Shown: positions 3,781 to 31,313 of the stretch, one piece after another
Layout of the letters: each line of letters starts with the position of its first letter
How positions within the stretch are numbered: the stretch's first letter is position 1
Assembly (NCBI GenBank): GCA_017470045.1
Contig: JAFUFG010000216.1
Coordinates: 1 to 44,197 of the forward strand
Direction of reading: 5' to 3'
Source of the DNA: Bacilli bacterium
GTDB lineage: Bacteria; Bacillota_I; Bacilli_A; RF39; UBA660
DNA length: 44,197 nt
Made by a program: the position numbers and the translations under genes
The notes under the pieces: model-generated
What the model was told of the DNA's origin: nothing
Seen by the model: only the letters and a program-made list of their open reading frames with translations
Database searches by the model: none

Positions 3781-3806
3781 GAGAGTACTCCATATGGAGT
3801 ACTCTC
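3781..3806. terminator. Palindromic terminator, CCATATGG core
   Basis: A 26-bp perfect palindrome (GAGAGTACTCCATATGG and its complement) lies 6 bases after the stop of the gene ending at 3775. The same sequence, with at most one change, recurs at 17679-17706 and 21374-21401, so it is a reused terminator type. It marks the left edge of cassette array 1. Confidence 0.75.
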
Positions 3807-4921
3807 TATTTATCTGAATCATAATGCTACGGGTATAAGAAATTATATATATTATGGTGAATTTGATCATACAATTATTGGTGGGTTACATACATTAGGT
3901 ATAGGAGGTATTACTACTAAAGCTTTTGTATATGCCACCAAAATGCTATTGATATGTGGACTGATATGGTAGCACTATATTATTGTTATGCATATGGTAA
4001 TCTGAGATATGGCGATAGTTGGTGTGGAATAAATGCATTAAATACTAGATTGGCATATTTAGAATATGATCGTGCCACCTTATGCTATTTATATGAATAG
4101 TAATCAAACTTCTACTAGAGTATGGCTTCATTATGGTTACCTGAGGACTGACATTTATCATGGTGGTTTGTCTGGTTTGAACGGCAGCCGTGGGTTGAGT
4201 ACTATAGATTATGAATTTGCCACCGGTGGCAATAGAATCATTTGATCTGAATAATCCTATATGGGCTCCAATAATACTTATCCCTCCAGTACTATTTGAA
4301 AAGTAAACTCCTATTAACGCAGCATTTATATCTATAGTATTATTCATCAGATAAATATATGCTATTGATATGAAAAATGATCAAGTATTGAGATCATATG
4401 GTAGATATGGAAGGCTTAGTTGGTATATTGGAGTTTGTGGTATAAATACTATAGATATTCCTATATTAACTAGTATGAATTGGGATATTGCCACCACTGC
4501 TATTTATATGTATAGTAAAACAGTTACAAATAGAGCTATATGGAAATATGGGGTTTTATGGCATTCAGCAATATCTGGAATAAATACACAGGGCGATGTA
4601 AATCTAAATAATATTATTGAATCTCATGCCACCAATGCTATTTATATGCAAAGCCAAACTACTGCTATTAGGCAGGTACAATGATATTATCAAATAGGTA
4701 CTACTAGCAATGAAGGTCTATATCACATATATAGTGGTCATAATGTTGGAGCTAAAGGATGGAATATTGCCACCACTATTTATATGGAACCAACTAATAC
4801 AACTTATATTCATGAATATACGATATATGGTGCATTTTCTATCCCAAGTACAACTGGAATGTATTGCATATGGACAACATATCCAATTAATGAATCTACT
4901 CGTTCTAGAATAATTGCCACC
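3806..4921. repeat. VR-cassette array 1 (8 cassettes: 7 plus, 1 minus)
   Basis: This gene-free gap is filled by eight units of 130-146 bp. Each reads as the C-terminal lectin segment of the DGR target, from (A)IYM or AIDM to xAT. Approximate borders: 3806-3939 (+), 3944-4079 (+), 4081-4224 (+), 4225-4356 (-), 4358-4495 (+), 4498-4633 (+), 4636-4774 (+), 4776-4921 (+). Every unit ends exactly in GCCACC, and the 5' edge is CTATTTATATG or a one-base variant. Units 3 and 4 meet tail to tail as GCCACCGGTGGC. Unit 3 resembles the TR/VR directly (YGYLRTD..HGGLSGLNGS). Unit 7 carries an in-frame TGA where its relative at 17405-17540 has TGG. No unit has an SD or an upstream protein portion, so they look silent. 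That they are donors or archived copies is inference. Confidence 0.85.
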
Positions 4922-4927
4922 AAATTT

Positions 4928-4953
4928 AGAAGGGAACCATATGGTTCCCTTCT
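4928..4953. terminator. Bidirectional palindromic terminator
   Basis: A 26-bp perfect palindrome (AGAAGGGAACCATATGG and its complement) followed by TAATTATTC. It separates cassette array 1 from the minus-strand operon that ends at 4956. It probably terminates that operon. Confidence 0.75.
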
Positions 4954-4955
4954 AA

Positions 4956-5393
4956 TTATTCTTCATGATAGTCTTCCATTGTAACTGTACTGTTGTTAAT
5001 ATTATATCCCCATTCAAATTTTAAAGTGCCATGTTCGGCATCAATTAATGTCATATCGTCAACTTTTAATCTATAAAGCGAATTTTGAGTAACAGCAATA
5101 TAGGGATAGACCGGTGGTTGATTTAAATCGTTTTCGAGCAAAACCCTATTCGTATCTATATCCATTATGGTGCATTTAGACACCTGCACTCCTCGATACG
5201 TACCAAGGGTTATCTTTATAACACTAACTCCTTTAGGAACTTGTAGCTCAAAGTATTCTTGTAGATAATGGTTTCCTTCATATTCATATGTAGGCCACTG
5301 AATCCACCCATCTTCTAATACTTTACTGGTAACAGTTAACGTCATACTATCTTTTTCCATAGTAAATGTATAAGGCGATCTTGCTATCTCCAT
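4956..5393 (-). CDS. Hypothetical beta-rich protein, last gene of the lysis-region operon
   Basis: This 145-residue protein starts at ATG 5393 behind AGGAGGTGAATTAAT. It begins MEIARSPYTFTM, has no signal peptide or membrane segment, and consists of alternating beta-type stretches (YFELQVPKGVSVIKITLGTY, then LYRLKVDDMTLID), which suggests a beta-sandwich fold. It lies directly downstream of the spanin-like pair and upstream of a terminator. No family is recognised. A virion or lysis-accessory role is possible from context only. Confidence 0.6.
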   Translation of the reverse strand: MEIARSPYTFTMEKDSMTLTVTSKVLEDGWIQWPTYEYEGNHYLQEYFELQVPKGVSVIKITLGTYRGVQVSKCTIMDIDTNRVLLENDLNQPPVYPYIAVTQNSLYRLKVDDMTLIDAEHGTLKFEWGYNINNSTVTMEDYHEE

Positions 5394-5406
5394 ATTAATT
5401 CACCTC

Positions 5407-6093
5407 CTACACACTATGACCAATTAAAATACCAGCAGCAATTCCACCAAGAGTCCACCAGATCTTTTGAGTTTTATGTTTCTTAATCTGTTTTGCAACT
5501 TCTTGTTTATAAGAATCAAATTCATATTGAATTCTATCTACACTTAGCTCCAGATTCTTTACTCTTAACTCAGCAATTTCTAATTGAGTCTTCAAATCTT
5601 TTATATGTTGTTCTTGTTCTTTAATCAATTCACTTTGTTTCACTGATAATTCTATCGAGTTCTGATTGCTGCTTTTTGAGTTCTCCAAGTAAAGTTTGCA
5701 TCTCTCTAACTCTTTGTTCAGACTGTTTATTTCTTGTGTTAATAGACTCTGCTCTTGTACTTGCTGATTGCAGAGCTTCTCCAGCTCTAACAAGGTTTTC
5801 TTCTGTTTGTCGTTGACTTTGTTGTATTGATTGATTGTATCCTTGTACTGCTGTATTTGTTTCTGAGATTCTATCAGCTGTAACTGTGATTGTTCGTAAT
5901 TCTTGCTTAACGTCAGATATCTGTTGTTTAGTGTCTCGTATTGCGTCAGAGACTCCGTCTGAATTTGGTTTGTTTCCTGTGTTAACTGTATATATGAGCC
6001 AGCATAAACACAAGAAGACAATGATAGTACCAATAGCAATAGAATGGTCGTACACAAAGTTCTGAAATCCACTAATTTTGGTGTCAACTTCAT
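5407..6093 (-). CDS. Outer-membrane or unimolecular spanin-like lipoprotein with C-terminal TM
   Basis: This is a 228-residue protein. The N-terminus has a basic start, a hydrophobic run LLLLVLSLSS and a lipobox-like L-S-S-C at about residues 25-28, which fits export and lipidation (signal peptidase II). Residues about 35-200 are Gln/Glu/Lys-rich with heptad character and should form a long coiled coil. The last about 18 residues (WWTLGGIAAGILIGH) are a membrane segment. Lipobox plus C-terminal TM is the layout of unimolecular spanins such as T1 gp11. The first 464 bases overlap the other spanin-like gene in a different frame on the same strand, as in Rz/Rz1. The start has only a weak SD, so translational coupling is likely. 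It would fuse inner and outer membranes at lysis, which implies a diderm host. Confidence 0.65.
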   Translation of the reverse strand: MKLTPKLVDFRTLCTTILLLLVLSLSSCVYAGSYIQLTQETNQIQTESLTQYETLNNRYLTLSKNYEQSQLQLIESQKQIQQYKDTINQYNKVNDKQKKTLLELEKLCNQQVQEQSLLTQEINSLNKELERCKLYLENSKSSNQNSIELSVKQSELIKEQEQHIKDLKTQLEIAELRVKNLELSVDRIQYEFDSYKQEVAKQIKKHKTQKIWWTLGGIAAGILIGHSV

Positions 6094-6154
6094 TTTTAAT
6101 CACATCTTTCTTTTCATTATATTTATCTTTTAGATTGTTCAGTTTTTCATTCAT
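5630..6154 (-). CDS. Inner-membrane spanin-like protein (i-spanin, Rz-type)
   Basis: This protein has about 174 residues. I place the start at ATG 6154 because AAGGG lies about 10 bases upstream; an in-frame GTG at 6163 is an alternative. A cytoplasmic basic N-terminus of about 35 residues is followed by one membrane segment (IAIGTIIVFLCLCWLIYTV) and then a 120-residue Gln/Glu/Arg-rich coiled coil (DTKQQISDVKQEL ... GELKKQQSELDRI). This N-in/C-out topology with a periplasmic coiled coil is that of i-spanins. Most of the gene overlaps the lipoprotein gene in another frame. Both frames give sensible, differently organised coiled-coil proteins, so I think both are real. The alternative is that only one frame is translated. 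Confidence 0.6.
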   Translation of the reverse strand: MNEKLNNLKDKYNEKKDVIKNEVDTKISGFQNFVYDHSIAIGTIIVFLCLCWLIYTVNTGNKPNSDGVSDAIRDTKQQISDVKQELRTITVTADRISETNTAVQGYNQSIQQSQRQTEENLVRAGEALQSASTRAESINTRNKQSEQRVREMQTLLGELKKQQSELDRIISETK

Positions 6155-6169
6155 GTAAATCACAACCCT

Positions 6170-6829: not shown

Positions 6830-6834
6830 GGTAA

Positions 6835-7323: not shown

Positions 7324-7339
7324 CTCATATTATCTCCTT

Positions 7340-7582: not shown

Positions 7583-7605
7583 TCTTTACTCACCACCTTT
7601 ATTCT

Positions 7606-9213: not shown

Positions 9214-9534
9214 TTACCCCTCCATCATTTCTCCAATAACACCTTCCAGCACATCCAGTCGTTCTTCAACTGTAGGCTGAGGGCCAGATTCATAATAGAT
9301 ATTATCAAAATCAGCTTCAATTTCCTGTTCAGTTTTATCAGTCAACAGATAAACTTCATCTGCTTCCCAATATTTTTTCTTTACAATAATAGTCTCACCT
9401 TTATCATCGGTATCTTCTTCTTCTACTTCAACTTCTTCAATATTCTTTCTCAACCATACATCATGAAGTAAGCTGTCCGGACGAGTCATAAATTTAATCG
9501 GATCCGGTTTAGTTGTTCCGAAAGAAACTCTCAT
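9214..9534 (-). CDS. Acidic tail-region protein (XkdW-like position)
   Basis: This 106-residue, strongly acidic protein has ATG 9534 behind AAAGGAGAAAG. It begins with VSFGTTKPDPIKFMTRPD, has a very acidic stretch (EEVEVEEEDTDDKGET) and ends with a helical segment (VEERLDVLEGVIGEMMEG). Its start overlaps the 3' end of the reverse transcriptase gene by 26 bases. The pairing of a protein of about 100 residues ending in such a helix with the 39-residue gene immediately downstream resembles XkdW/XkdX-type gene pairs downstream of fibre genes. Function in the particle is not known. Confidence 0.6.
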   Translation of the reverse strand: MRVSFGTTKPDPIKFMTRPDSLLHDVWLRKNIEEVEVEEEDTDDKGETIIVKKKYWEADEVYLLTDKTEQEIEADFDNIYYESGPQPTVEERLDVLEGVIGEMMEG

Positions 9535-10795
9535 ATCGATCTTTCTCCTTTGCTTCTATACTCATAGCTGTAGCAGCTATTCTGAAACCTTTAAAAAATT
9601 CTCCAATATTTTTAATCTTATAGCAATTACTATGATCAAAATATCCTTTGTAAGAAATCAATCGTTTGTATTGTTTAAATGTACCACCATTTTTAGTACG
9701 TAGAACCATTCTTCTTGCTCTAAGAAATATCTTAGATCTAATACTAATCTTGCCACTTCTATGTACAACATAACCCATCATATCTATAGAAGAGTTACCT
9801 TCACCAAGTTTCATAATATGCCAATCAGACTTAACGTCTAAATGTAGCACATTTTTTGCATAATCGATAATCATCTTCACTGCAGTATACAAATAATTTC
9901 TATCTGATCCTACTAATAAGATATCATCCATAAAGAATACCATATGTTCTACCAACTTCTCTCCTGATACTGTATGTAGATTTTTAGCATATCTATAGAT
10001 ATAAGATAACACTAATTGCATTAACCATTGAGCAGGTAATCCACCTATCAATAGTCCTGTATACTTCTCATTATGTCTTCCAGCAATTATAGCATCTCCA
10101 TAAGATTGCAGTATAACACTCCATACATACAGAAGGTCGTCATTACAGATATTATCATTCAGTATTTTCCACACAATATTCTTATCAGTAGAAGGATAAC
10201 ATTTTCTGATATCAATCTTTACAAAATACAAAGTTTTCCTTTTATATGGAATATGATGATACTTACAATACCAAGCATTTTTGTTGTCTTGTATTATATA
10301 CTTCTGTATCATCTTTACTCCAAATATAGGACCTCTTCCTTTAATACTTGAAACTTGCTGTAATAGTATTCTCTTTTTCCAAAGTTCTTTACTAACTTCT
10401 ACAGCTATATAGTCTATACACTCTTGAACAGCTGTTTCATCTCCTATATAACGTATCTTATTTGTACTAGTATCCAATTTAATCCTAATTACAGGAGGAA
10501 TAAAGCTTAACTTACGTTGACGAATGGTGTTGGCTATATCAATAACAAAGTTATGTATAAATTGATCCAAGAAGAATCCTGGTACTTTAGAATTGACTGC
10601 TACATCATATATCAACTCACTAACTCCAAGAACTTTAACTAATAGAAATTTAAACTTTGGCTCTTTACAATGTTTATATATACATTTAGCAACAAATGGT
10701 TTTATTACATCAATATCACAAATATCAATGTTCTTACAAACTTTTTTCATAGAATAAGGGGTTCTTTCTGATCTACGCACACTGTTCATTCTCAT
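9509..10795 (-). CDS. Reverse transcriptase of a diversity-generating retroelement
   Basis: This is a 428-residue RNA-templated DNA polymerase. Visible motifs: palm motif A FVKIDIRKCYPSTD at about residues 195-208, motif B GGLPAQWLMQLVLSYIY at about 250, catalytic FMDD (MVFFMDDILLVGSD) at about 290, and the motif D/E region with MMGYVVHRSGKISIR at about 340. There is no maturase or endonuclease domain, which fits DGR enzymes rather than group II introns. It lies downstream of a template repeat and a lectin-fold target on the same strand, the usual DGR order. TR-to-VR changes are confined to adenines, the hallmark of this enzyme class. The ATG at 10795 lacks a clear SD; ATG 10789 or ATG 10750 are alternatives. 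No accessory Avd gene was found nearby. Confidence 0.93.
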   Translation of the reverse strand: MRMNSVRRSERTPYSMKKVCKNIDICDIDVIKPFVAKCIYKHCKEPKFKFLLVKVLGVSELIYDVAVNSKVPGFFLDQFIHNFVIDIANTIRQRKLSFIPPVIRIKLDTSTNKIRYIGDETAVQECIDYIAVEVSKELWKKRILLQQVSSIKGRGPIFGVKMIQKYIIQDNKNAWYCKYHHIPYKRKTLYFVKIDIRKCYPSTDKNIVWKILNDNICNDDLLYVWSVILQSYGDAIIAGRHNEKYTGLLIGGLPAQWLMQLVLSYIYRYAKNLHTVSGEKLVEHMVFFMDDILLVGSDRNYLYTAVKMIIDYAKNVLHLDVKSDWHIMKLGEGNSSIDMMGYVVHRSGKISIRSKIFLRARRMVLRTKNGGTFKQYKRLISYKGYFDHSNCYKIKNIGEFFKGFRIAATAMSIEAKEKDRYESFFRNN

Positions 10796-10908: not shown

Positions 10909-11015
10909 GACGGGTGGCAATGTTCCAGTTCAGATTACCCAACCTGTTGTTGCCGTTCAAATTAGACAAACCACCATTAGCAACGCCATTCCTCAAGTTA
11001 CCATAAGAGAGCCAT
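10909..11015 (-). other. DGR template repeat (TR)
   Basis: This non-coding 107-bp segment aligns without gaps to the 3' end of the target gene (11310-11416). On the minus strand it reads from ATGGCTCTCTTATGG to GCCACCCGTC. It is rich in AAC and AAT codons, as expected for a template to be adenine-mutagenised. Sixteen positions differ from VR, and all sixteen are A in the TR. Identity ends abruptly on both sides: beyond CCCGTC the TR continues AATCTG and the VR TTTCC. It would be transcribed as the template RNA for the reverse transcriptase encoded just downstream. Confidence 0.93.
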
Positions 11016-11237
11016 GCTAACGGAGAGAACACAATAACACCACCATCGTTATACAACCCTGGGCTAAGATCTACATGTTAGTCTCAGCTCTTTTTATAAC
11101 TTAGTAATCAAAATTACTTACTATAACTATGAGTAATCACAATTTAATATCCGTTGAAATCGAAGGTTATATCGGGTAAAATAAAGTTATCGAGTTATTA
11201 AATTGCTAAAAAGATAATTTTTTAAAAACTTAATACT
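11016..11237. other. Intergenic DGR leader between target and TR; no gene seen
   Basis: This is an AT-rich stretch between the target-gene terminator and the TR. I see no open frame with an SD and no room for an Avd protein of about 120 residues. It contains short inverted segments (TAGTAATCAAAATTACTTA around 11102-11120) and probably holds the promoter and 5' structure of the TR RNA, but no promoter can be named with confidence. The 10796-10908 stretch on the other side of the TR likewise shows no gene. Confidence 0.4.
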
Positions 11238-11254: not shown

Positions 11255-11261
11255 CATACAA

Positions 11262-11279
11262 GTGCATCTTACGATGCAC
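11262..11279 (-). other. DGR hairpin/cruciform downstream of VR, containing the stop codon
   Basis: The minus strand reads GTGCATC-GTAA-GATGCAC: a 7-bp perfect stem with a four-base GTAA loop, 30 bases past the VR end. Known DGRs need a short hairpin with a GNRA-like tetraloop just downstream of VR for efficient retrohoming, and this fits in size, position and loop. The TAA of the target gene lies inside the loop. Confidence 0.75.
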
Positions 11280-12996
11280 TGTATACACCCCTGTTGCCAT
11301 TGCAGGAAAGACGGGTGGCAATGCGCCAGTACAGATAACCCAACCAGTCGCCGCCGGTCAAAGCAGACAAACCACCATAAGCAACGCCATACCCCAAGCG
11401 ACCATAAGAGAGCCATTCTCTAGTAGCAGTAGTTTCAGTATCCATATAAATAGCATCACGGGTGTAAGTCGTAGAGGAGCCTCCTACTCGGGTGGCGAAA
11501 TACAAGCCATTCTTGTAACCCATGTACACTATATAGTACCAGGCTGCTGATGCTCCCTGAGCAATACGTAAACCAGAGGCTACATACTTAGCGGTTATTG
11601 AAGTTGCCTGATTAGCAACAGAACGTACAATATAGGGTTGATAATAGTATGTATCGCGCTCTTTATAGAGGTTGAGAATAACATCCGCGAAAACTTCGTA
11701 TGCACCCATCATGTATTCAATACCCTGTAATTTAGCAGGTTCTTTACCGGATTTAGGATCGGTGGGAGAACCATCATTACCAAGGATATTATCGCAAGAA
11801 CCAGTCCTCCAAATAAAGGAGCTAATGTATGTAGTACCATTAGTAGTTGCACCATTAGCTACTGTATTAAAGGAAGAAGTTGCATCATCAAAGTAAATAA
11901 CGCCATATGTAGTACCATCAATAACTTCTGTAGTCTTGGAGGTTACTACATAACCTCCCTGCCCACTAATTGCATAAGCATTTTCATTAGCACGGTCAAT
12001 AGCAGTAGTATATGTACCAATTAACAAGTTAGAACCAACAAGAATATTGTTTGCCTGTGCAGTTGTTACTAATACGCGTTTAACACCATTTTCACCTTTA
12101 GCTACAGGATACTGGAAAGAATAGTTTACACAACCCTGAATAATACCATCCATAGTCAGAGAAGCATATTTGATACGAGCCATCAGAATAAGGAAAGCAT
12201 TATCAGTAATAGTAGCACCAGAGAAAGTCTTAGTCTGACCATTCTTTACAGAAGTATTTTCTGCATAGGTGTGAGAAGTGTTGTGGGAGAATACATAGGT
12301 TCTAGTAGGACCACCAGAATAAGAGGTCATACAATTATCAGCAGTTAAGTCAGACATGTATTTAGAATGCAGTACCCATTCTCTAATAGTACCATTAGGA
12401 AGAACAGCTTCAGGTAAAGGTTCGATATGAGCGTAGCTGGTTTTCAGTTTAGAACAATATCCTTCATAATAATAATCACTATCATCGGAGAGTTCTGTCC
12501 ACCAGTGATAACCAGTCTGCTGCAGTACACCTACATATTTAGTCGGATCAGTACGAGTAAAAGCAGTTCTACAAGTAATACCTTCAATAGCGGTGATTAA
12601 AGGTTGACCTGTACTAGACATAGTCCAGTTACAATCAGTAGGAGTAAATAAAGGGTTACCTGCGTAGTCATCCTGACCAGCATCTGTATTGGTGGAAGGA
12701 ATACAAGCCATACCTACATTGTCACCACCTCTAGTACCTTCAGAGATACCAGAAGCATCAGGATGATAGAATCGTACATAGCCATCCCAATCTCCACGAG
12801 TAGCAGCATACCATTCATCACATAATGCTGTAAGCTGTGCAGGTGTAGCAGTAGCAGAACCATTCTGTTCAAAGAACTCACGCATTGTGTCTCTATAACG
12901 CTGTTCAGCGGTCATATCAGCTCTATTATCCACGTATGATTTAATAGCTGTGACCAGAACTCTTAATCCATCATAGTCTAATTTTTTCTTACTCAT
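11269..12996 (-). CDS. DGR target: C-type-lectin-fold receptor-binding protein
   Basis: This 575-residue protein has ATG 12996 behind AAGGAGTGAG. The N-terminal about 45 residues (KKLDYDGLRVLVTAIKSYVD) resemble the start of many phage fibre proteins. The middle is a beta-rich body with no membrane segment. The C-terminal about 150 residues form a C-type-lectin-like domain: LQGIEYMMGAYEVFADVILNL, AAWYYIVYMGYKN, then the variable part AIYMDTETTATREWLSYG ... YWRIATRLSCNGNRGVYSAS. The VR covers about residues 527-562, and its mutable codons line up with the TR's AAC/AAT/AGG codons. DGR targets of this fold bind host surface receptors. The part from AIYM to IAT is the unit repeated about 48 times in intergenic arrays. 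It probably heads an operon with the fibre genes upstream. Confidence 0.92.
   Translation of the reverse strand: MSKKKLDYDGLRVLVTAIKSYVDNRADMTAEQRYRDTMREFFEQNGSATATPAQLTALCDEWYAATRGDWDGYVRFYHPDASGISEGTRGGDNVGMACIPSTNTDAGQDDYAGNPLFTPTDCNWTMSSTGQPLITAIEGITCRTAFTRTDPTKYVGVLQQTGYHWWTELSDDSDYYYEGYCSKLKTSYAHIEPLPEAVLPNGTIREWVLHSKYMSDLTADNCMTSYSGGPTRTYVFSHNTSHTYAENTSVKNGQTKTFSGATITDNAFLILMARIKYASLTMDGIIQGCVNYSFQYPVAKGENGVKRVLVTTAQANNILVGSNLLIGTYTTAIDRANENAYAISGQGGYVVTSKTTEVIDGTTYGVIYFDDATSSFNTVANGATTNGTTYISSFIWRTGSCDNILGNDGSPTDPKSGKEPAKLQGIEYMMGAYEVFADVILNLYKERDTYYYQPYIVRSVANQATSITAKYVASGLRIAQGASAAWYYIVYMGYKNGLYFATRVGGSSTTYTRDAIYMDTETTATREWLSYGRLGYGVAYGGLSALTGGDWLGYLYWRIATRLSCNGNRGVYSAS
11310..11416 (-). 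other. DGR variable region (VR)
   Basis: This 107-bp 3' part of the target gene is gap-free against TR 10909-11015. Codon changes from TR to VR include AAC to CGC, AAT to TAT, AAT to GCT, AAC to GGC, AAC to GAC and AGG to TGG; all 16 changed bases are A in the TR. GCCACCCGTC at its 3' end, shared with the TR, is the likely initiation-of-homing side. The cassette that includes the VR is bracketed in the gene by CACCCGT direct repeats (ACACCCGT before GATGCTATTT, and GCCACCCGT after the VR). Confidence 0.93.
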
Positions 12997-14105: not shown

Positions 14106-15524
14106 TTATGCAAACAGGGTATCGATATCAGAATTGGTCAGTTCAGTCATGCTGTAACCCAGAGCATTTTCTACGTTAGTAGAAGTGATGGAAATAGTAC
14201 CAGCAGCATCACCAGTGCCAACAGTAATGTTGTCACCAACTTTTACTACACCCTTATCAGTAGCAGAACCGGTCTTAACGGAGAATACGCCTGCTGCAAC
14301 GTCAATGTTAGTGCCTGCCTGTGCAACACCAAGAGCTGCGTTGGTAGCAGTAGCAACGCTTACTACACCGTTAGCAACTGCCAGGTTCGTACCAACCTGC
14401 AGCACACCCTTCTGAGCATCAGTACCAGTATTAACACTAATTACGCCAGAGGCTACATTAATGTTTTCACCTACCTGTACAACACCCTTAGTGGTGGTAT
14501 CAGCAGTAGCAACGGAGATAGTACCAGCAGCATCACCAGTACCTACAGTGATGTTTTCGCCAACTTTAACAACACCCTTAGTGGATGCAGAAGCTTCAGG
14601 AACACTAATTACACCAGCATTGCCTTCAGTACCAACAACGATGTTAGAACCAACTTTTACTACACCGAATACGGCATCAGAAGCTTTAGCTAAAGAGATA
14701 ACGCTATCGGTAACAGTAATGTTATCGCCAACTTTTAACAGACCAAAGTCAGTGGTAGAACCTTTCTTAACAGATACTACACCGTCAGCAACGTCCAGAT
14801 TAGCACCAACCTGAAGAACACCCTTATCGGATGCAGAACCGGTCTTTACAGAGAATACACCAGCAGCTACATCGATATTAGTACCAGCCTGAGCTACACC
14901 CAGAGCTGCATTGGTAGCAGTTGCTACAGAAATAGTACCAGAAGTTACGTCAATGTTAGTACCAACAACTACAGCACCAGCAGTAGAAGCAGTAGCCAGA
15001 GGCAGCTGAGCTACAGGTACCAAAGTGTTAACATCCAGAGTAGCTACGCCATTAGCAGCAGCCTTTTCAGCTACAGCAATACGAGGAGTAGCATCTTCTG
15101 CATTAATGGTGATATCAGCAGTACCGTCAAAGTCAACACCATTAATCTTGCGAGCAGTCTGCAGTTTAATAGCTTCATCAGCAACAGATACAGAACCGGA
15201 TACGTTTACATATTCGCCCTTGTGTTCAGGAGTAGGTTCAGAAGCCGGAACCCAACGATACAGTTTTTCAGTGGATTCATCCAGATACAGTTTACCAGTT
15301 TCACCTTCAGCAGGGAACTGAGCAAGAGTAGGATAGCTTTCAACGTCATCTACATAAGAAGGCAGATAAGTGGAAGCAACTTTGGCGCTAGCATCCAACG
15401 GAGCAACACCGTTAGCCTGACCCTTAGAAGCCAGAGGAACGTACAGAGTAGCATTGTAAGCGTCCTGTTTAGTTTTGAAATAAGACAGACCAGTTAAATC
15501 AAGAAATTTTTTAGCAGTAGCCAT
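14106..15524 (-). CDS. Head- or tail-fibre protein with about 20-residue beta repeats
   Basis: This 472-residue protein has ATG 15524 behind AAAGGAGAGAC. Residues 1-130 form an anchor: FLDLTGLSYFKTKQDAYN is a common fibre N-terminus, followed by GKLYLDESTEKLYRWV. From about residue 150 there are roughly a dozen imperfect repeats of the type KGVVKVGxNIxVxxGVISV, separated by TATNAALGVAQ or TGSATDKG. This repeat is typical of phage fibre shafts, for example phi29-type head fibres. The gene is noticeably richer in GC than its neighbours and shows long internal near-identical DNA stretches, so it may expand and contract by recombination. It ends LTNSDIDTLFA, the shared terminal motif. Confidence 0.8.
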   Translation of the reverse strand: MATAKKFLDLTGLSYFKTKQDAYNATLYVPLASKGQANGVAPLDASAKVASTYLPSYVDDVESYPTLAQFPAEGETGKLYLDESTEKLYRWVPASEPTPEHKGEYVNVSGSVSVADEAIKLQTARKINGVDFDGTADITINAEDATPRIAVAEKAAANGVATLDVNTLVPVAQLPLATASTAGAVVVGTNIDVTSGTISVATATNAALGVAQAGTNIDVAAGVFSVKTGSASDKGVLQVGANLDVADGVVSVKKGSTTDFGLLKVGDNITVTDSVISLAKASDAVFGVVKVGSNIVVGTEGNAGVISVPEASASTKGVVKVGENITVGTGDAAGTISVATADTTTKGVVQVGENINVASGVISVNTGTDAQKGVLQVGTNLAVANGVVSVATATNAALGVAQAGTNIDVAAGVFSVKTGSATDKGVVKVGDNITVGTGDAAGTISITSTNVENALGYSMTELTNSDIDTLFA

Positions 15525-16557: not shown

Positions 16558-17680
16558 TATATTTATATGAATACTGAAACTATTTCTATTAGAGTATGGC
16601 TCTATTATGGTAGCTTGGGGCGTGGAGTTACTCGTGGCGGTTTATATACTTTGGACGACTACGGATTGGGTAATATGCACTGGCACATTGCCACCGGTGG
16701 CATGAGCATAATTTACATTACCAACTCCTGCATCAGATCCTGAGCATAAATTTATTCCAGCATAAGTATTATATGTAAGTCTACCATAAGCTTCTAATTT
16801 AATATTACTAATATATTCACTATACATAAAAATAGCTGGTGGCAGTATACCAGTGCACAGCAGTATTACTTCCAGCTCCATGTAAACAATTTATTCCACT
16901 AGTAATAGGATATGCTAAATATCCTCGTGATAATAATATTATAATTCCAATAAAATTACTTACCATATAAATAGCGTCTATTTATATGAGTTATCATAAT
17001 ATTATATCTATGCATGGTTCTATTATATCATACGGAGATTTAAGAAGTAATACTCCAGAAGGAATAAATTGTGTGCATGATAATGATAATGATAGCTATC
17101 ATTGGATACGTGCCACCAGATATTTATATGACTAATATTATTGGGTATAAAGCATGGTTCTCTTACCCTCATTTAAATTATAATGTAAGATCTGGAATAA
17201 ATGCTAGTTGCCCTGGATATTCATTATCAAATGATACTATACATGAATATATTGCCACCAATATGTATTTATATGGGACATAATATTATTAGTACTGCAT
17301 CTAATCAAACGTATGGAGTAGCATGGACTGGTAAATCCTCTGGTGGTTTAAATCTTATTACAAGCGGAAATTCACTATTTGGTACAGCAGGATGGATTGC
17401 CACCGGTGGCAATGCTCCACTCTTTAGCTCCAACATTATGCCCTCCATATATATGATATAACCCTTCTTTACTAGTAGTACCAGTATTATAATACCATTG
17501 TAATTGTCTTATACTAGTAGTTTGACTTTGCATATAAATAGGTGGCAATGGTCCAGTCCAGATAACCCAACCAGGCGTGGCCGTGCAAAGAAGGCAAACC
17601 ACCAACAGCAACGCCATGCCCCAAGGTACCATAAGATAACCATTCTCTAGTAGAAATGGTTTCATTATCCATATAAATAG
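16558..17680. repeat. VR-cassette array 2 (8 cassettes, mixed orientation)
   Basis: The gap between the fibre operon and the PhoH gene holds eight lectin-segment cassettes: 16558-16695 (+), 16696-16837 (-), 16838-16976 (-), 16977-17117 (+), 17118-17259 (+), 17260-17404 (+), 17405-17540 (-), 17541-17680 (-). Tail-to-tail pairs meet exactly as GCCACCGGTGGC at 16690-16701 and 17399-17410. The head-to-head pair at 16970 reads CATATAAATAGCG then TCTATTTATATG. The first and last units are TR-like (YGSLGRGVTRGGLYTL; YGTLGHGVAVGGLPSL). Others belong to a divergent class with SGIN in place of GGLS. The 17405-17540 unit is a close relative of array 1 unit 7. All are open end to end in the cassette frame, but none has its own start. 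Function inferred, not shown. Confidence 0.85.
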
Positions 17681-18477: not shown

Positions 18478-20336
18478 ATGCTATTTATATAGCAAACGAA
18501 ACTATTTCTATTCGAGAATGGCTCCCTTATGGTGGCATGGAGTATGGTGTTGCTCGTGGAGGGTTATCTCATTTGCGCGACTACACAGGGTTGTCTGGTA
18601 TAGGCTGGCGTACTGCCACCTATTGATATGAATAGTAATACTATTGCTACTAGAGAATGTCTCTATTATGGTTACCTGTGGGCTGGCGTTGCTAATGGCG
18701 GTTTGTCTGGTTTGTACGTCCACTATGTGAGTCATAATAGCTATCGTATTGCCACCTATTTATATAGATATTAATATATGGGTGCTATATTCATTTATAA
18801 ATGGTGGAGTTGGAGCTGCATTTGGCGATACTACTAATGGTATAAATAGTATCAGAATTCATGGTGATTTAACTGATCATTATTGGGTTATTGCCACCAC
18901 TAACTACTCTATTTATTTGACAGTTAACGGAACTACTGGATTAATGATAGTATCATTATATGGAGCATATTGGCATAATAACAATCGGGGTGGTATTAGT
19001 TGTACGAATACATCTCATAATGGATTAAGTGTATATACTGCCACCTTATGCTATTCATATGAATAATGAAACCATTTCTACTAGAGCGTGGCTCTCTTAT
19101 GGTGGCCTGGGGAGTGGCGATGCTACTGGTGGTTTGTCTCTTTTGAGCGGCTACAACAACAGGTTGAGTTATCTGAACTGGGGCCTTGCCACCTATTTAT
19201 ATGAATTTAGACACAATGCATACATTACAAGTATTTAGATTATACGGAGCATTTGATTTTGGTACTACTATTGGTGGGTTGTATTTTTCTAGACCTGGTG
19301 ATGCATTAAGTAGTGTATTTCCTAGATATGCCACCTATTTATATAATAAAATTAGCATCTGAATTAGTGCAAGAATCATTTAAAACTTATGGCCATATAC
19401 TGAGAGGAATAGTTAATGGAGGAATAAATTGTGAGGTAACTCAGGGTAATTTGGATCATTTAGAATATACTTTTGCCACCGGTGGCAAGTTGAAATCTAT
19501 AAAATGATAAATGATTACTATATATAGCAATAATACCATAAGTGCTACCATACGAATGCCTCATATCACCATAAGATTCATATTGACTAATTCGAATAGT
19601 TTCACTACTCAAATAAATAGTGGTGGCAGTATACCAGTACAGAGAACTCAATCCGTTGAGGCCGTACAAATAAGACAAACCACCAATAGTAATGCCAGAC
19701 CCCCGATTACCAAAAGAGAGCCATTCTCTATTACCAGTAGTTTCATTATCCATATAAATATATGCTATTAATATGATGACTCAAAATACTAATATTAAAG
19801 AATGGCTTCATTATGCTAGAATTGCGAGCGGATCAGTAGCAGGTTTGTATGGTTCAAATTATACATCTAGTCCAGCCAATAGGATCTGGGATATTGCCAC
19901 CACTGCTATTTATATTAGAAATGATATTATTGCAAATTACTCGTTTTTTGCATATGGAACTCCTTTGACTGGTGAATCCAGATCTGCCATGGGTATAAAT
20001 TGTGAACATGATAGAAATAGAATGAATGAATATGAACACTCTGCCACCTATTGATATGGAAACGATACAAAGCATTACAATTCAAGATTTATTATGCTAC
20101 GGCTATATCAGTGTAGATAATAAAAGAGGAGGATTAAATTGTGAACATCCAAGATGGCATGGTGGTAGATATCATAATATTGCCACCTAGTATACGCTAT
20201 TTATATGCGTAGTAATGAGAAAAATAGTCGTCCGTGGTTCGCTTCTGTTCATTTTGCCCGTGGAAAATATTTTGGTGGTTTATATACTTTAAATGGTGAA
20301 GGTAGTTTAGACCAAAAAATGTCAGAACTTGCCACC
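18478..20336. repeat. VR-cassette array 3 (13 cassettes: 11 plus, 2 minus)
   Basis: This is the longest array. Units: 18478-18620, 18621-18756, 18757-18898, 18899-19045, 19046-19193, 19194-19335, 19336-19480 (all +); 19481-19621, 19622-19760 (both -); 19761-19901, 19904-20048, 20049-20187, 20194-20336 (all +). The only tail-to-tail joint (19475-19486) is exactly GCCACCGGTGGC. Between same-direction neighbours 0-10 bases separate GCCACC from (C)TATTTATATG. TR-like members are units 1, 2, 5 and 9 (such as REWLPYGGMEYGVARGGLSH). The rest are divergent but keep the Tyr-Gly, Gly-Gly-(Leu/Ile) and final Ala-Thr landmarks. Unit 5 has one extra codon in the mutable stretch. No SD or promoter was found for the units. 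Confidence 0.85.
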
Positions 20337-21404: not shown

Positions 21405-23022
21405 GGTGACAAAATACCAGAACAGAGTGCTCAACTTGTTGTCACCGCTCAAACCAGACAAACCTCCATGAGCAATGCCAGAACTCTGGCTACCACAAGA
21501 AAGCCACATCCTGGTAGTAATAGATTCAATAGCCATATAAATAGCAGGTGGCAGAAGTCCAACCCAAACCAGTCAACACGTTGTCACCAGCCAAAGTAGA
21601 CAAACCACCATGATAAATGTCAGTCCACTGGCGACCATAAGCGAACCATTCTTTAGTAGCAGTAATATTACTTTGCATAAAAATAGCAGGTGGCAAGGGG
21701 CCAGCTCAAAGTACTCAACCCGCTGTATCCGAACAAAAAATACAAACCACCATGATCAACGCCACGCTCCAGGTGACCAACAGAGTTCCATGCTCTAATA
21801 CCAGTAACATTACTTTGCATATAAATAGCAAGGTGGCAGTATACCATGTATGATTACTATAATACACACCTCTACCAGTATTAATACCTCCATAATATTT
21901 ATATGCATAGTAATTATACAGGAAATTTAAAATATGAATCTTATGGGCCACTGATGACTAGCGTTTCTTCTGGTGGGATAAATAGTCTTCGAGCATGGAG
22001 TGTGTTATCAGACCGCGGATGGATAATTGCCACCGGTGGCACCATACCAATACATTCTTGGATTTTCTAAATCACGAACTGCATTAAACCCGCCATAGCT
22101 CTGGTGAGTTATATCACCATTCATATAACAACTTTTCCAAGTTCCTCCATATGTACTTTCACTTCTCAGATAAATAGCATAATTTATCTGAATAGTAATA
22201 CTATAAGACAAGATTATGGATTAGAAGCTTATTTAACGTTTAATAATAGTAACAATCGTGGTGGTATCAATAGTAATAGAGGTGTGTATTATGGTAATAA
22301 TAATTATGAAAATGCCACCTGCTATTTATCTAACGGTCAATATTATTGGTATTAAGTATTTTGCCATAATTGGTTCAATATTAAATGGAAATACGGCAGG
22401 TATAAATTGTATCAATGGAGGTATAGGAAGTGATCCATATTGGTACCGTGCCACCGGTGGCAGTAGCTAATCTGGTTCCCGAATTTATCGGATAATCACC
22501 TTCAACACAATTTATTCCGGCTGAAATATAAGTATTATAGTATCCGTATCCTTGCCAAGCCTTAGCAATATTATTATTACTAACCATATAAATATGGTGG
22601 CAAGGTACCAGTACGGATAACCCAACCCGAAGTGGCCACGTAAATTAAATAAACCACTACGATCACTACTAGCCATCAGATTACTATAAGACACCCATTC
22701 TCTACTACCAGTAGTTTCAGTATCCATATAAATAGCAGGTGGCAAACATATAGCTCATATTACCCATTCCGTTAATGATGTTCAAATTAGACACCCCACT
22801 AATAGTATCACCAGACCTCAGAGCACCATAAGAGATCCATGCTCTATTACCAATAGTTTCAGTATGCATATCAATAGCAGGTGGCAACACGTACAATTAC
22901 ATCGTCATATACAGGAGTTCCTATTATAGAATTAATACCACAATGAGATATACCAAAATTAATAAATCCATACACATAAAACGAGTAAATTGTAATCATA
23001 TTATGGACCATATAAATAGTAA
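21405..23022. repeat. VR-cassette array 4 (12 cassettes, one truncated)
   Basis: Units: 21405-21546, 21547-21688, 21689-21831 (-); 21832-about 21890 (-, truncated to its 3' part); 21891-22034 (+); 22035-22179 (-); 22180-22319 and 22320-22455 (+); 22456-22595, 22596-22737, 22738-22879, 22880-23022 (-). Tail-to-tail joints at 22029-22040 and 22450-22461 are GCCACCGGTGGC. Unit 1 is the only one ending GTCACC, one base off. Unit 4 keeps only GGINTGRGVYYSNHTWYTAT and is fused to the start of unit 5. Unit 6 is a relative of array 6 unit 3, and unit 4 resembles unit 7. TR-like members include units 1-3, 10 and 11. The array fills the gap between the amidase and the large fibre gene and contains no other gene. 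Confidence 0.85.
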
Positions 23023-23048
23023 GGTGGCAGTGCATATGCACTGCCACC
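23023..23048. terminator. Palindromic terminator built on the cassette end GCCACC
   Basis: A 26-bp perfect palindrome GGTGGCAGTGCATATGC and its complement, 14 bases past the stop of the 23063-25486 gene. Its two arms begin and end with the cassette 3' edge (GGTGGC/GCCACC), so terminator and array border coincide. Confidence 0.7.
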
Positions 23049-23062
23049 ATATTCTTTAGATG

Positions 23063-26512: not shown

Positions 26513-26999
26513 TGCTATTTATATAAATAATAATAATACTGGTACTAGAGAATGGGTATGTTATGGTGATTTTAAAGCTAATATTAATAGAGGTGGGTTA
26601 TATCGTTGGAATGGTAATAATCATTTGAGTACTGTAGACTATATTTTTGCCACCAGCTATTTATCTGAATCATACTACTGTTGGGAATAAAATATGTCTT
26701 CATTATGGAATTATAAGTACTACTAACACTTATGCAGGTATAAATACATTAACTAGCGGTGTTAATAGTGTCGATTGGTATCTTGCCACCATACTCGATC
26801 CTCTACGACTTACACCCGTGATGCTATTTATATGGATACTGAAACTATTGCTACTAGAGAATGGCTTTCTTGTGGTGCCTCGGGGACTGGCGTTGCTCAT
26901 GGTGGTTTGTCTAATTTGAACGGCACCACCTGGTTGGGTAATATGCACTGGGGCATTGCCACCCGTCTTTCCTGCAATGGCAACAGGGGTGTATACAGT
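26513..26999 (+). repeat. VR-cassette array 5 (3 cassettes; last carries target-gene flanks)
   Basis: Units: 26513-26654, 26655-26790, and 26791-26999. The third differs from all others: from about 26799 it matches the DGR target on both sides of the cassette, with TCCTCTACGACTTACACCCG upstream and, after GCCACC, the target's 3' coding sequence as far as GTATACAGT at 26999. The frame reads SSTTYTRDAIYMDTET ... IATRLSCNGNRGVYSRK and stops at 27008. Against the TR about 12 of 15 differences fall on TR adenines, so this copy was diversified by the DGR. No SD or upstream target domain is present, so it is a fragment, not a second target gene. Confidence 0.85.
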
Positions 27000-27038: not shown

Positions 27039-30000
27039 TTATTCTAAAGTAAATTTGTCTGTATAGTATCCCTGATTAGGATTAGCTATAATAGTAACCT
27101 GATTGCCTCTTCTGATAGTATATACATTGCCATTTTGTTTATCAGCTCCTACTATACGAACTAATCCATTATAATCTTCCGCATTTACAGTCAATGTACA
27201 CATATCATCGGTAATTTCTGGTAATATTACAGTAGTATCTCCTGTAATAATTTGACTTGTAGTAAATCCTTCTACAACTTTATATCCAGTTTCTACACTA
27301 TCTTCAAGATAATCAATAAATAATGTAGTCTGATATGGCACTTGAATGATAGTGCTTATATCAGTTCTATATGTAATATTGTTATATCTTACGGTAGCGA
27401 TAAAGTGTTCTGTTGCAGGAATCGTTACATTATATCTTATCTTTTCAGCAAGATCAGCGTATATCGTAGTATCTTTTTCTACACGATAGGATTGATCAGT
27501 TCTAATATTAGTTTCACCAGCATTATAACCTGTATCTGCACTTATAGATATTAACAAATCAGAGCTATTCTTTGTTGTTATAAATCTTACAGTAGAATCT
27601 GTCTTACTATAATAAGTCTTAGTCTTATCAATATCTCCATTATCTTTATAAGACAATATATGAATAACTTCGATAGTCTGATTAGTTGTAGGCAGAATAG
27701 ATACAGTATACTCTTTCAATGTAGCAGGAGCTACTGTTATATCTATATCTTCTACCAGTGTAATCTTACTAACACTAGCAGCTCCAGCTACATACCCATT
27801 ATCAGGAACTACTTTAATGGTAATAACAGATCCTTTAGGAGCTTGGAAGGTAGTTGTGTACTTAGTCTTACCATTAAGATAAGCTTCTACATGCTGATTT
27901 TCTAATGTAGGGATATTAATAGTATAATGAACTACACCTTCAAAAGAGATAGTAGTAGCATTCATCTTTTCGTCAGGAATGTACCCATTATTTTCTCTTG
28001 CAATCAATGTATTAAAATCAGTTAAATCTATTCCTTCTATAGAATAATAGTGTTCTTCAGTATCAGATACATTGTTAAATGTAAGCATTAATTTATTCAG
28101 ACCGTTGTTCTTATAAGCTGCATTTGCTCCAGTATTTACTATCTTAACCTGAGAAACCAGTGAAGCATAAATATTTCTATCATTTACAATGGTTACTTTA
28201 GATACTATATCTGATGAAGCATACACTTTAGATGATACTGTGTAATAATCCCAAAGAGATCTATATCCATCGGGCATTGTAGCAGCAAATGGTTCTTGTC
28301 CAAAATTAAATGAACCAGAAATATTATCACTAAATGCGCCTTCATCATGTATAAAGAAATATGTAAATTCATAAGGTTTAGAATAATCTATTCTACTCTT
28401 ATCTTCCCAATCATAAGATAAATTGATCTTCTTAGTACTATGAACTTTAATCAATTTATACCCGTCATCCGTTATATACATCTCAAAATTAGTACCATCT
28501 ATATTTCTAGTCATTACATCAGATTTAAACTGAGTATATACTATACTTCCATCTTCAGAAGTAAGAATCATGTATCCGGTAGTATCTGATTTAGAGATAT
28601 TATATCGTTCTCCATCAATAGTATAATAAGATTCTCCTCCAAATATTGGGTGATAAATGAGTTCTATAGTTCCCCCAACTTCATATAATTCCAATCTACC
28701 AGAATGAGAATTATATACTATATCATAATTTATTCTAGAATTAGATCTCATTCTAGTAGAACTGATTTGTGTATAAGTAGTACCATTCTTACCGGTAAGA
28801 GTCATATACTTATTAGACTCATTTATACCAATAGTAAACAACTCTTCAGACTCTTTATCTTGAGCACAATTCATTCTCATAGTATAGAATTTAGTATTAT
28901 CTACATAAAGAGTCATCTTATTCTTAGCAAGATTAAGTGCTACGCCTATAACGTCTCCCTGCATAGGAGGAACAGTTAAGAATACATCATTAATCTCATG
29001 GAGATGCTGCACCCAACTACTATAACTAGGAGTCTTATTGGACATTTCTTTCCAATAATAATGATACCATTGTTCATGGAAGAGATCTGTTCTAGATGAG
29101 AGTACTGTAATATTACCAAAACTATTAGTAACACCAGCCGATAATGGTATTCCTATCTTTGTATCTTTAAGACTAGCCTTAGTAGCATAGAATTCAAAGT
29201 ATATCTTATTCTCTACAGGAATAGGTTTATTAATGAATATAGTATAACCACTCTTAAAATACTCTTCATCTTCATCTATAGTAGCGTCCATAGAGTACTT
29301 ATATTTATCAGTAATTACTACACCTCTATCAGAATCAGACTTCTTTTCATCTTCTTCTATACAATACAATCCAAGAGTATTTACATTTACATCGATAAGA
29401 TTATTTACGTCTACTACACTGTCTATATCTGCAGTTACATTGTTATATCCATCATATAAGCTAGGATCAAAAGGATGAGAATCCCATCCATCGTCGTCTT
29501 CTTCATCAGGAGGATTTACGTATGAAGCATATATTTCATACATATACTTGTATCCATCAGGTTTATACCCATAATCAGTAGTACCAAAATTAATTATACC
29601 TTTAATTCTCTTTTCATGCTCAATTTCAGTATCTTCAGAGTTCTGATTGAAGTCTACAAGTACTTTCTTGTAGTAAACATTCGACCATATACAAAAATAA
29701 TACTTTCCATCACTTATATCAAATGAAGTTAATGTATTACCATCTTCATCATAAGTTTTATTTTGTATTGAATAGAACAGTTTACCATTTACAAATATAT
29801 TTACAGAGTTACTAGACATATCTACGCCTACACCAATTACATCATGCGAACCAGGAAGTCTGGTGTGTATAGCAGGAGATTCTGTAAATAAATATCCTTC
29901 TGTAGAAGTAGTAGATAACTTAAAGTATCTTTTATCATTCTTTCTATATACAGAATCATTAGTAGACTGAATGTATACTATTCCATTAGTACCAGTAAGA

Positions 30001-30656
30001 GTAAAGTATCCAGTATTAATATTTACTGTCTTAGTATAAGAAATACCAGCATATGTATATCTAACATCTTCTAATGTATAATTAGAATTCTCATCTACTT
30101 TAAAGAAGAAAGTAATGTTATCAGTATTGCGTCTAAAAACGTAATCGTTAATTTGAGTATATATTATAGCATCATCTAAATTAACAAACTTAATACGATT
30201 ACGATCATCTATAGAATAATAAAAAGTATCTCCATCTTCTGATTGATATGAGCCATCAGGTTGTTGTGTTAATACAATATCTTCTATAATAGTTTTATTA
30301 AAATTAAGAAGATCAATTGGATTGGTATGATAGTTTAAGAACTGCTTAGAGTACTTAGACATTATATCATAATTCTCATTATCTTTATAATAAAGAGATC
30401 CAATTAAGAAATCTGAGTTTAATACACCAAAAGATACTTCTTTAGATATACCAGCATATAAAGGAATATTGTGAAATGAAGAAATAGGATAATAATCATC
30501 TACAATAAACTCAAAGTATGCTTTATCTTGTATAGGAAAATTGCAAATTAAGAAAAAAGGTTTATCATAATCAAAAGCAACACCATTTGGAGTAAGTATA
30601 TCTTCAGATGGTTTACTCTTTTCATCGTATGCTGACATAAATAATTTTCTAGCCAA
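27039..30656 (-). CDS. Giant appendage protein: SPRY-like domains plus C-terminal beta-repeats
   Basis: This 1205-residue protein has a TTG start at 30656, supported by AAGGAGG 9 bases upstream and no better ATG. Two related SPRY/lectin-like regions are visible: about residues 1-360 (KAYFEFIVDDYYP, HDVIGVGVDMSSNSVNIFVNGKLFY) and about 450-790 (KIYFEFYATKASL, GDVIGVALNLAKNKMTLYVDNTKFY). Short beta modules (YFTLTGTNGIVYIQ, YMTLTGKNGTTYTQ, YMILTSEDGSIVYTQ) are interspersed. From about residue 915 there are four beta-repeats of the type seen at 725-3775 (TINIPTLENQHVEAYLNG, TVSILPTTNQTIEV, NVTIPATEHFIATVRYNN, CTLTVNAEDYNGLVRI). SPRY folds bind proteins or glycans, so this is likely a host- or mucus-binding fibre. 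Confidence 0.75.
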   Translation of the reverse strand: MARKLFMSAYDEKSKPSEDILTPNGVAFDYDKPFFLICNFPIQDKAYFEFIVDDYYPISSFHNIPLYAGISKEVSFGVLNSDFLIGSLYYKDNENYDIMSKYSKQFLNYHTNPIDLLNFNKTIIEDIVLTQQPDGSYQSEDGDTFYYSIDDRNRIKFVNLDDAIIYTQINDYVFRRNTDNITFFFKVDENSNYTLEDVRYTYAGISYTKTVNINTGYFTLTGTNGIVYIQSTNDSVYRKNDKRYFKLSTTSTEGYLFTESPAIHTRLPGSHDVIGVGVDMSSNSVNIFVNGKLFYSIQNKTYDEDGNTLTSFDISDGKYYFCIWSNVYYKKVLVDFNQNSEDTEIEHEKRIKGIINFGTTDYGYKPDGYKYMYEIYASYVNPPDEEDDDGWDSHPFDPSLYDGYNNVTADIDSVVDVNNLIDVNVNTLGLYCIEEDEKKSDSDRGVVITDKYKYSMDATIDEDEEYFKSGYTIFINKPIPVENKIYFEFYATKASLKDTKIGIPLSAGVTNSFGNITVLSSRTDLFHEQWYHYYWKEMSNKTPSYSSWVQHLHEINDVFLTVPPMQGDVIGVALNLAKNKMTLYVDNTKFYTMRMNCAQDKESEELFTIGINESNKYMTLTGKNGTTYTQISSTRMRSNSRINYDIVYNSHSGRLELYEVGGTIELIYHPIFGGESYYTIDGERYNISKSDTTGYMILTSEDGSIVYTQFKSDVMTRNIDGTNFEMYITDDGYKLIKVHSTKKINLSYDWEDKSRIDYSKPYEFTYFFIHDEGAFSDNISGSFNFGQEPFAATMPDGYRSLWDYYTVSSKVYASSDIVSKVTIVNDRNIYASLVSQVKIVNTGANAAYKNNGLNKLMLTFNNVSDTEEHYYSIEGIDLTDFNTLIARENNGYIPDEKMNATTISFEGVVHYTINIPTLENQHVEAYLNGKTKYTTTFQAPKGSVITIKVVPDNGYVAGAASVSKITLVEDIDITVAPATLKEYTVSILPTTNQTIEVIHILSYKDNGDIDKTKTYYSKTDSTVRFITTKNSSDLLISISADTGYNAGETNIRTDQSYRVEKDTTIYADLAEKIRYNVTIPATEHFIATVRYNNITYRTDISTIIQVPYQTTLFIDYLEDSVETGYKVVEGFTTSQIITGDTTVILPEITDDMCTLTVNAEDYNGLVRIVGADKQNGNVYTIRRGNQVTIIANPNQGYYTDKFTLE

Positions 30657-30731
30657 AATAATTTACCTCCTTAAAAAGAAAGTTTATGTTATTAATAGTA
30701 TGTGAAAAAGTATTGAAAGCTAGAAATATAA

Positions 30732-31313
30732 GATGCTATTTATTTGCATAGTAATACTATTGCTACTAGAGAATGGTTATCTTATGGTTCCCTGTGGACT
30801 GGTGGTACTACTAGCGGTTTGCCTACTTTGCTTAGTAACAACGGATTGGGTGATAAGTTTTGGCAATTTGCCACCTTGCTATTTATATGAATACTGAAAC
30901 TACTGCTACTAGACAATGGCTATCTTATGGTTACCTGGGAAATGGTGTTGCTAATGGTGGTTTGTCTTGTTTGCGCGGCGACAACTGGTTGGGTATTCTG
31001 CACTGGTACGTTGCCACCTTATGCTATTTATCTGAGACATGAAGATGATTATGGAGGTACTCGGAAAAGTTGTCATATGTATGGCGATATAACTCATGGT
31101 ATTTATGGTGGGTTCAATACAACTCGTGATTTAGAAAATCATAGATTTTATTGGTTTAATGCCACCCGTGATGCTATTTATATGAATAGTGAAACCATTT
31201 CTATTAGAGAATGGCTCTCTTATGGTCACCTGAGTGGTGGCGTTACTTCCGGTGGTTTATATACTTTGAACGGCAACCGCGGGTCGGGTACTCTGACCTG
31301 GGGTATTGCCACC
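30732..31313 (+). repeat. VR-cassette array 6 (4 cassettes, all plus)
   Basis: Units: 30732-30875, 30876-31018, 31019-31166, 31167-31313. Units 1, 2 and 4 are clearly TR-like (REWLSYGSLWTGGTTSGL; RQWLSYGYLGNGVANGGL; REWLSYGHLSGGVTSGGL). Unit 3 (YGGTRKSCHMYGDITHGIYG) belongs to another class shared with 22035-22179. Unit 4 is preceded by CGTGATG, the exact sequence preceding the cassette in the target gene (CACCCGTGATGCTATTT), so the joint sits in the sequence ACCCGT common to the target flank and cassette end. The array lies in the about 690-bp gap upstream of the giant appendage gene. Confidence 0.85.

Follow-up and report, generated by a model that had tools for sequence, protein, structure and literature searches.

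A diversity-generating retroelement accompanied by arrays of partial target cassettes, a candidate silent repertoire, in a phage-like contig

Diversity-generating retroelements (DGRs) are known for blind variant making, and contig JAFUFG010000216.1 (assembly GCA_017470045.1, assigned to a Bacilli bacterium) raises the question of what such an element would do with dozens of partial copies of its own target. The stretch analyzed here, positions 1 to 44,197 and hereafter called the window, carries on its minus strand a DGR consisting of a reverse transcriptase (RT), a template repeat (TR), and one lectin-type target gene with a variable repeat (VR), and its intergenic regions hold 48 copies of the 3' segment of that target. 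We consider it probable that this DGR is coupled to a repertoire of silent cassettes that exchange with the expressed gene through short identities at their ends. The DGR has the following features, listed with lengths in nucleotides (nt), base pairs (bp), or amino acids (aa).

9509 to 10795, minus strand: DGR-type RT, 428 aa (Pfam RVT_1, 7e-07; PHROG reverse transcriptase, 2.6e-47; related RTs adjoin TR/VR pairs)
10909 to 11018, minus strand: TR, 110 nt, with A-specific mismatches to the VR
11269 to 12996, minus strand: DGR target, 575 aa; no other complete gene bearing the segment was found in the window
11310 to 11419, minus strand: VR in the target, from the TR/VR alignment
11416 to 11454, minus strand: target head AIYMDTETTATRE, part of the cassette unit and outside the TR alignment save for its last few bases
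11458 to 11464, minus strand: CACCCGT, upstream direct repeat flanking the cassette segment of the target, found by eye
11311 to 11317, minus strand: CACCCGT, downstream direct repeat flanking the same segment, found by eye
11261 to 11280, minus strand: hairpin with a stem of 7 to 8 bp and the 4-nt loop GTAA, covering the stop codon, 29 nt beyond the VR

Over the whole 110 nt, 16 of the 17 mismatches between TR and VR fall at TR adenines, and in the core the changed sites comprise 16 of 25 adenines and none of 77 other bases. Because these differences are A-specific, the DGR appears to introduce new variation in the VR core of the expressed lectin-type target. The target matches no Pfam domain, and its AlphaFold2 model (mean pLDDT, 94.7) retrieves three PDB chains at an E value of <0.001, all of TaqVP, a DGR variable protein (best E value, 1.7e-05), with modest TM-scores of 0.29 to 0.45. 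It is predicted to be a binding protein whose lectin tip is hypermutated by the DGR. The hairpin past the VR resembles that of the BPP-1 target (compare PMC3240598), and its GTAA loop is not a strict GRNA loop, the DGR criterion being a 7- to 10-bp stem with a GRNA loop. No Pfam match to the accessory protein Avd, which can escape detection or be absent, was found among 40 open reading frames (ORFs) scanned in the window.

Apart from the TR and VR, a protein hidden Markov model (HMM) of the units detects 48 of them, grouped in six intergenic arrays totaling 6,722 bp. The counts per array (8, 8, 13, 12, 3, and 4) are those of the original prediction, and the strands of the HMM matches agree with it in placing units in both orientations. 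Unit limits are the ends of the HMM matches, except for C7, C10, and D9, which had shorter matches and were delimited by eye. The arrays, all defined by the HMM, and the cassettes singled out below are as follows.

3808 to 4921, A4 on the minus strand and the others on the plus strand: array A, 8 cassettes
16561 to 17678, both strands: array B, 8 cassettes
18483 to 20336, both strands: array C, 13 cassettes
18483 to 18620: cassette C1 of array C, which the relative P0231 carries adjoining an F3-like unit
21405 to 23017, both strands: array D, 12 cassettes
21832 to 21918: truncated cassette D4 of array D, 87 nt
26517 to 26963, plus strand: array E, 3 cassettes
About 26799 to 26999, plus strand: cassette E3 of array E, with target flanks on both sides
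30738 to 31313, plus strand: array F, 4 cassettes, with the F3/F4 junction GCCACCCGTGATGCT

When each array is left out of the model in turn, 43 of the 48 units are still recovered at an E value of <1e-3, the units missed being A4, A8, C3, D4, and D7. An HMM built only from eight expressed VRs, namely, this VR and those of seven other contigs, matches 28 of the 48 units at an E value of <1e-3 and 39 at an E value of <0.05, with no match outside the arrays in the window. Twenty triplet-shuffled windows gave no match at an E value of <1e-3. The segment at 14121 to 14252, a chance match through its GTCACC end, was dropped from the HMM used for the census tests. The units had been described as lacking both a Shine-Dalgarno (SD) sequence and a start codon; ATG, TTG, or GTG occupies the third head codon in 34 of 47 units, but none of the 34 has an SD-like word just upstream of that codon. 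Having no SD sequence, gene start, or N-terminal domain, the arrays are probably silent.

Each unit corresponds to the 3' part of the target that is open to exchange. It runs from ATTTATATG or a variant of it to TGCCACC and codes for the last lectin segment, with a head of 12 to 13 residues and a core of usually 34 residues. The TR alignment spans the core and stops within the last head codon or two, and therefore this TR cannot reach the greater part of the head or those scaffold positions of the core that are not adenines; upstream of the TR/VR homology, the units continue for about 32 nt of variable sequence. The match between TR and VR begins at this position, or no more than a few residues away from it, in nine related DGR loci hand-picked from 85 with a repeat pair. 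Nearly all units end in TGCCACC, D1 ending instead in GTCACC. Of 31 divergent units, 30 have GCC and 30 have ACC as their last two codons, the exception, D9, having GCCACC two codons later, whereas inside the units GCC accounts for 6 of 54 Ala codons and ACC for 1 of 98 Thr codons; the tail is therefore held at the DNA level. All six tail-to-tail joints consist of GCCACC followed directly by GGTGGC, with no spacer, and direct joints have spacers of 1 to 12 nt, often ending in TGCT, with 35 nt before E3. The F3/F4 joint is the product expected of a fusion across the CACCCGT repeat of the target. Conserved short sequences thus bound the array copies and the expressed segment alike, and E3, because it has target flanks on both sides, suggests copying from the target into an array. 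Several array ends adjoin terminator-like hairpins recognized by eye, one of which, GGTGGCAGTGCATATGCACTGCCACC at 23023 to 23053 beside array D, itself has GGTGGC and GCCACC as its ends.

The units differ widely in their distance from the TR. The changed sites amount to 15 of 25 adenines and 3 of 77 other bases in B8, 12 of 25 and 3 of 77 in both C5 and E3, and 12 of 25 and 4 of 77 in F2. These four units resemble the VR in this respect and look like products of the DGR, and divergence in the remaining units grades up to saturation. In the eight units with the lowest non-adenine change, selected on that property, the pooled counts are 109 of 200 adenines and 48 of 613 other bases (p=5e-42). 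At TR asparagine codons, the third base is a pyrimidine in 155 of 159 cases in 16 near units and in 197 of 283 in 31 far units, compared with 237 of 383 and 447 of 730, respectively, at other core codons. We infer that the near units derive from this TR and were copied at different times and that the far units are older or come from other TRs.

The reading frames of the cassettes are nearly all intact. Complete units are all in frame, with lengths of 132 to 144 nt in steps of 3, and an exchange with the target at the cassette borders would keep the frame, as the original prediction held. With the truncated D4 excluded from codon and stop counts, 46 of the 47 units are stop-free, the single stop being an internal TGA in A7. 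A neutral simulation at the observed divergence yields about 98 stops, and 17.7 when no more than one-tenth of that divergence is taken as neutral. The simulation begins from the VR and ignores that snapshots of a selected target would be intact from the outset; it therefore argues against decay in place and not by itself for reuse.

Relatives of the target and of the arrays bear on whether segments move. The sister target P0110, on a 167-kb contig, is 95% identical to the target of the window, and the differences are concentrated in the cassette segment, with 12 of 514 residues before it, 7 of 13 in the head, 12 of 34 in the core, and none of 14 after it (segment, 19 of 47; head, p=3.6e-8; block, p=3.3e-15). 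All of the head differences lie upstream of the TR alignment, and the segment has been replaced as a block. Measured against the TR of the window rather than one of P0110 itself, all 13 core changes in P0110 can arise by A-to-N substitution, C5 with its inserted codon being left out of the comparison; the core therefore looks DGR-made and the head does not, and the two seem to have changed by different routes. P0231, an ORF on another contig, encodes an F3-like cassette followed by a C1-like cassette and ends in ATK, as F4 does. Its second cassette shares 36 of 46 residues with C1, including 11 of 12 hypervariable residues; among 14 cassettes and the VR in the window (B1 and C2, of unequal length, being omitted), no pair shares more than 4 of the 12. 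The same cassette thus stands beside a different neighbor in the relative. Because the core of P0231 fits C1 better (30 of 34) than its head does (6 of 12), heads and cores may also recombine separately. Together, the block replacement in P0110 and the relocation in P0231 suggest traffic of segments. Across F3-F4, P0230 and the window are 99% identical, and the two may represent one strain.

In the ten closest targets of the clade, the flanks are mostly kept and the scaffold is changed, with 8 of the 10 matching only 4 to 10 of 20 to 22 scaffold residues. The match to the conventional consensus declines from 15 of 22 (P0110, P0114, and the window) to 4 of 22 (P0202), whereas the 110 conventional targets that served to define the columns have a mean match of 0.88 and a minimum of 0.59. 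Before the VR, these clade members match between 101 of 124 and 66 of 119 conserved columns. These patterns suggest that relatives in the clade carry arrays as well. P0112 and P0113 are without the usual C terminus; P0112 ends in FATLDITLFL in place of ATRLSCNGNRGVY, and its back-translation permits a tail-to-head cassette joint (GCCACC and then GCTATTT), as if the gene continued into an array. P0115, P0116, and P0202 are three diverged target paralogs, each with a longest contig of 296175 bp, and probably belong to one phage, and P0117 and P0200, each with a longest contig of 54568 bp, likewise probably do.

In the mechanism that we propose, the DGR would diversify the VR core of the one expressed target, and whole exchangeable segments, comprising head and core, would be kept in the six arrays without an SD sequence, a gene start, or an N-terminal domain. 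Segments would move in both directions between the expressed gene and the arrays, and among array positions, with ATTTATATG at the head and TGCCACC at the tail as the likely handles and the CACCCGT direct repeats flanking the target segment. An incoming segment would keep the frame and replace the head and the scaffold, which this TR cannot change, after which the DGR would mutate the core again. The arrays may thus act as donors in a process of gene conversion or short-homology exchange, the putative purpose of which is the switching of receptor specificity. Donation of this kind is the best supported, if indirectly, of the three roles suggested in the original prediction, through the P0110 block, the cassette-like scaffolds of the relatives, and the P0231 relocation. 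The second role, storage of past VRs, agrees with the A bias and TR origin of the young units and with the target flanks of E3, and it is compatible with donation. The third, off-target RT products alone, is disfavored because the units extend and vary upstream of the TR homology and the old units stay open.

Several other explanations of the arrays have to be weighed. A real alternative, although we regard it as rather unlikely, is that cassette transcripts serve as alternative templates for the DGR machinery itself, with cDNA starting from the TR end, the RT jumping at TGCCACC, and joining taking place at ATTTATATG. The 3' word common to the TR, VR, and units lies on the DGR priming side, the six tail-to-tail joints are identical and spacerless, and upstream cDNA joining in BPP-1 needs only at least 8 bp of identity, according to PMC3240598; however, retrohoming normally covers only TR-matched sequence, and the region of the target past the VR is missing from all units except E3. 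Slightly less probable still is one-way debris, in which tandem or dispersed copies of past VRs arose by slippage or retrohoming errors and were never reused. The CACCCGT repeats that flank the segment and yield the F3/F4 junction, the target flanks of E3, and the fact that snapshots of a selected target begin stop-free whatever their scaffold would all fit such an origin. Debris would not be expected to retain so few stops (1 versus about 98 or about 18) or a tail whose DNA is constant even in saturated units, and it leaves the head difference of P0110 unexplained. Pairwise comparisons of cassettes give mixed evidence on this point, with 9 synonymous and 9 nonsynonymous codon differences between A7 and B7, which suggests some protein-level constraint even though A7 has a stop, and 5 synonymous and 14 nonsynonymous differences between D6 and F3, which show no synonymous excess and no sign of constraint.

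Cassettes of an integron- or shufflon-like system, moved by an unseen site-specific recombinase acting at the conserved ends, would account for those ends, for the two orientations, and for the palindromic tail-to-tail joints. With only about 6 to 9 conserved bases per end, direct-joint spacers of varying length, and no integrase or invertase among 40 window ORFs scanned with Pfam, we regard this explanation as quite improbable. Least credible of all is an assembly artifact in which population variants of one VR were stacked by the assembler, even though the window may derive from a metagenome. Exact repeats in the window reach at most 45 to 49 nt, none being of 50 nt or more, which makes stacking of reads unlikely; the arrays sit between different genes and in both orientations; and cassette-spanning ORFs are also encoded by other public contigs, P0231 and the separately listed P0230 (possibly the same strain), the latter encoding the F3-F4 junction. 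Debris and a site-specific recombinase are less likely than a repertoire with two-way exchange.

A number of observations weigh against such a repertoire. The end identities are short (about 7 to 13 nt in most heads and 7 to 10 nt in the tail), which is little for RecA-type recombination, and no integrase, invertase, or recombinase was found by Pfam among 40 ORFs scanned in the window, which is part of a phage genome. The pair D6/F3 shows no constraint. Heads also vary among conventional relatives, differing at 0 to 5 of 13 residues in 34 pairs that are at most 2.5% diverged before the VR and by a fraction of up to 0.46 in 252 pairs at most 10% diverged, so that the 7 of 13 in P0110 is extreme rather than unique. 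P0200 (73 of 117 columns) and P0202 (66 of 119) are diverged before the VR as well, and the odd scaffolds of the relatives could come from different TRs. Only two relatives of the cassette ORFs were found by protein search, and none of the relatives, compared as proteins, showed a target segment identical to an array cassette. Searches of viral contigs with the RT, the target, the PhoH protein, and a 1205-aa protein of the window found no DNA of a close relative. Likewise, 47 stretches of genome contigs obtained with the target profile include no relative, and two viral and nine genome stretches retrieved by cassette-junction patterns gave no cassette-profile match better than an E value of 3. 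A named phage collection yielded no DNA match and no relative of the cassette ORF, and its RT and target relatives are distant, with about 24 to 32% identity among the matches listed (20 of 33 RT records and 7 of 7 target records).

The arrays were also sought in other DGRs. The comparison set comprises 103 other loci (101 DGR-related loci and 2 pattern hits), several of which overlap on the same contigs; profile searches yielded only distant DGRs, in 20 loci found with the target and the best 80 of 188 found with the RT. A nucleotide self-similarity test shows an A-specific repeat pair with one VR per TR in 85 of the 103 loci and none in 18; this test sees only close copies (four in this window) and therefore excludes young arrays elsewhere and not old ones. 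The cassette profile, applied to 97 of the loci with flanks of up to 10 kb, has a match in 44 and never more than two per locus, and at an E value of <0.05 the other six (L098 to L103) have two matches each in two loci and none in four. Across these roughly 100 loci, most of them distant DGRs, no arrays were thus seen within the flanks examined.

PMC3521204 describes DGRs that have as many as four VRs, mostly located within ORFs, and PMC6642488 gives a dozen to hundreds of VR copies for certain DGRs, although its worked example has few A-to-N changes and lies inside one adhesin ORF. Such DGRs resemble that of the window in having more than one VR-like sequence per TR, whereas the copies found here are intergenic, silent, and bounded units. 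No DGR tied to silent intergenic cassette arrays was found by searches of the open-access literature. Like a BPP-1-type DGR, the present element has an RT, A-specific TR/VR differences, a lectin-type target with a C-terminal VR, and a candidate hairpin past the VR; unlike it, this phage has 48 partial silent copies, and its unit exceeds the TR and varies outside it. In the pilS/pilE system of Neisseria and the vlsE system of Borrelia, one expressed gene is accompanied by numerous silent copies of parts of its variable segment, and the ends of these copies are conserved. The phage shares with them one expressed gene and many bounded partial silent copies and differs in being a phage, in having a retroelement that makes variants, and in that conversion here is putative. 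Phage tail fiber shufflons and invertible segments keep alternative C-terminal segments in the genome in both orientations, as is the case here, whereas in the window no recombinase was found, there are no long inverted sites, and the segments are far more numerous. DGRs and silent cassettes are each known, and their combination appears to be new.

The surroundings of the DGR look like those of a large phage. They include genes for PhoH, an endolysin-like amidase, and four radical SAM proteins, as well as a weak match to a virion structural protein. The radical SAM genes lie on the minus strand within 12 kb (31346 to 42804). One of their products (41422 to 42804, minus strand) has as its top NCBIfam match a PapB-type ranthipeptide maturase (E value, 1.1e-58, under the curated cutoff) and also matches the CXXX-repeat maturase family. 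It adjoins a 341-aa protein (40192 to 41217, minus strand) with a long repeat tail that has a cysteine at each fourth residue, perhaps a phage-encoded thioether-modified protein.

Chicken immunoglobulin diversification uses pseudogene donors, and a repertoire of the kind proposed here would unite diversification by mutation with diversification from a repertoire within one genome. The open-access literature found describes no DGR with a store of earlier solutions. More tentatively, the system may amount to diversification with memory, in which the retroelement invents variants and the successful ones are banked in the arrays and recombined back, perhaps by the RT jumping between TR RNA and cassette RNA. 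The entry of cassettes into the target, and its rate, would be testable from the sequences of sister phages and from longitudinal metagenomes.

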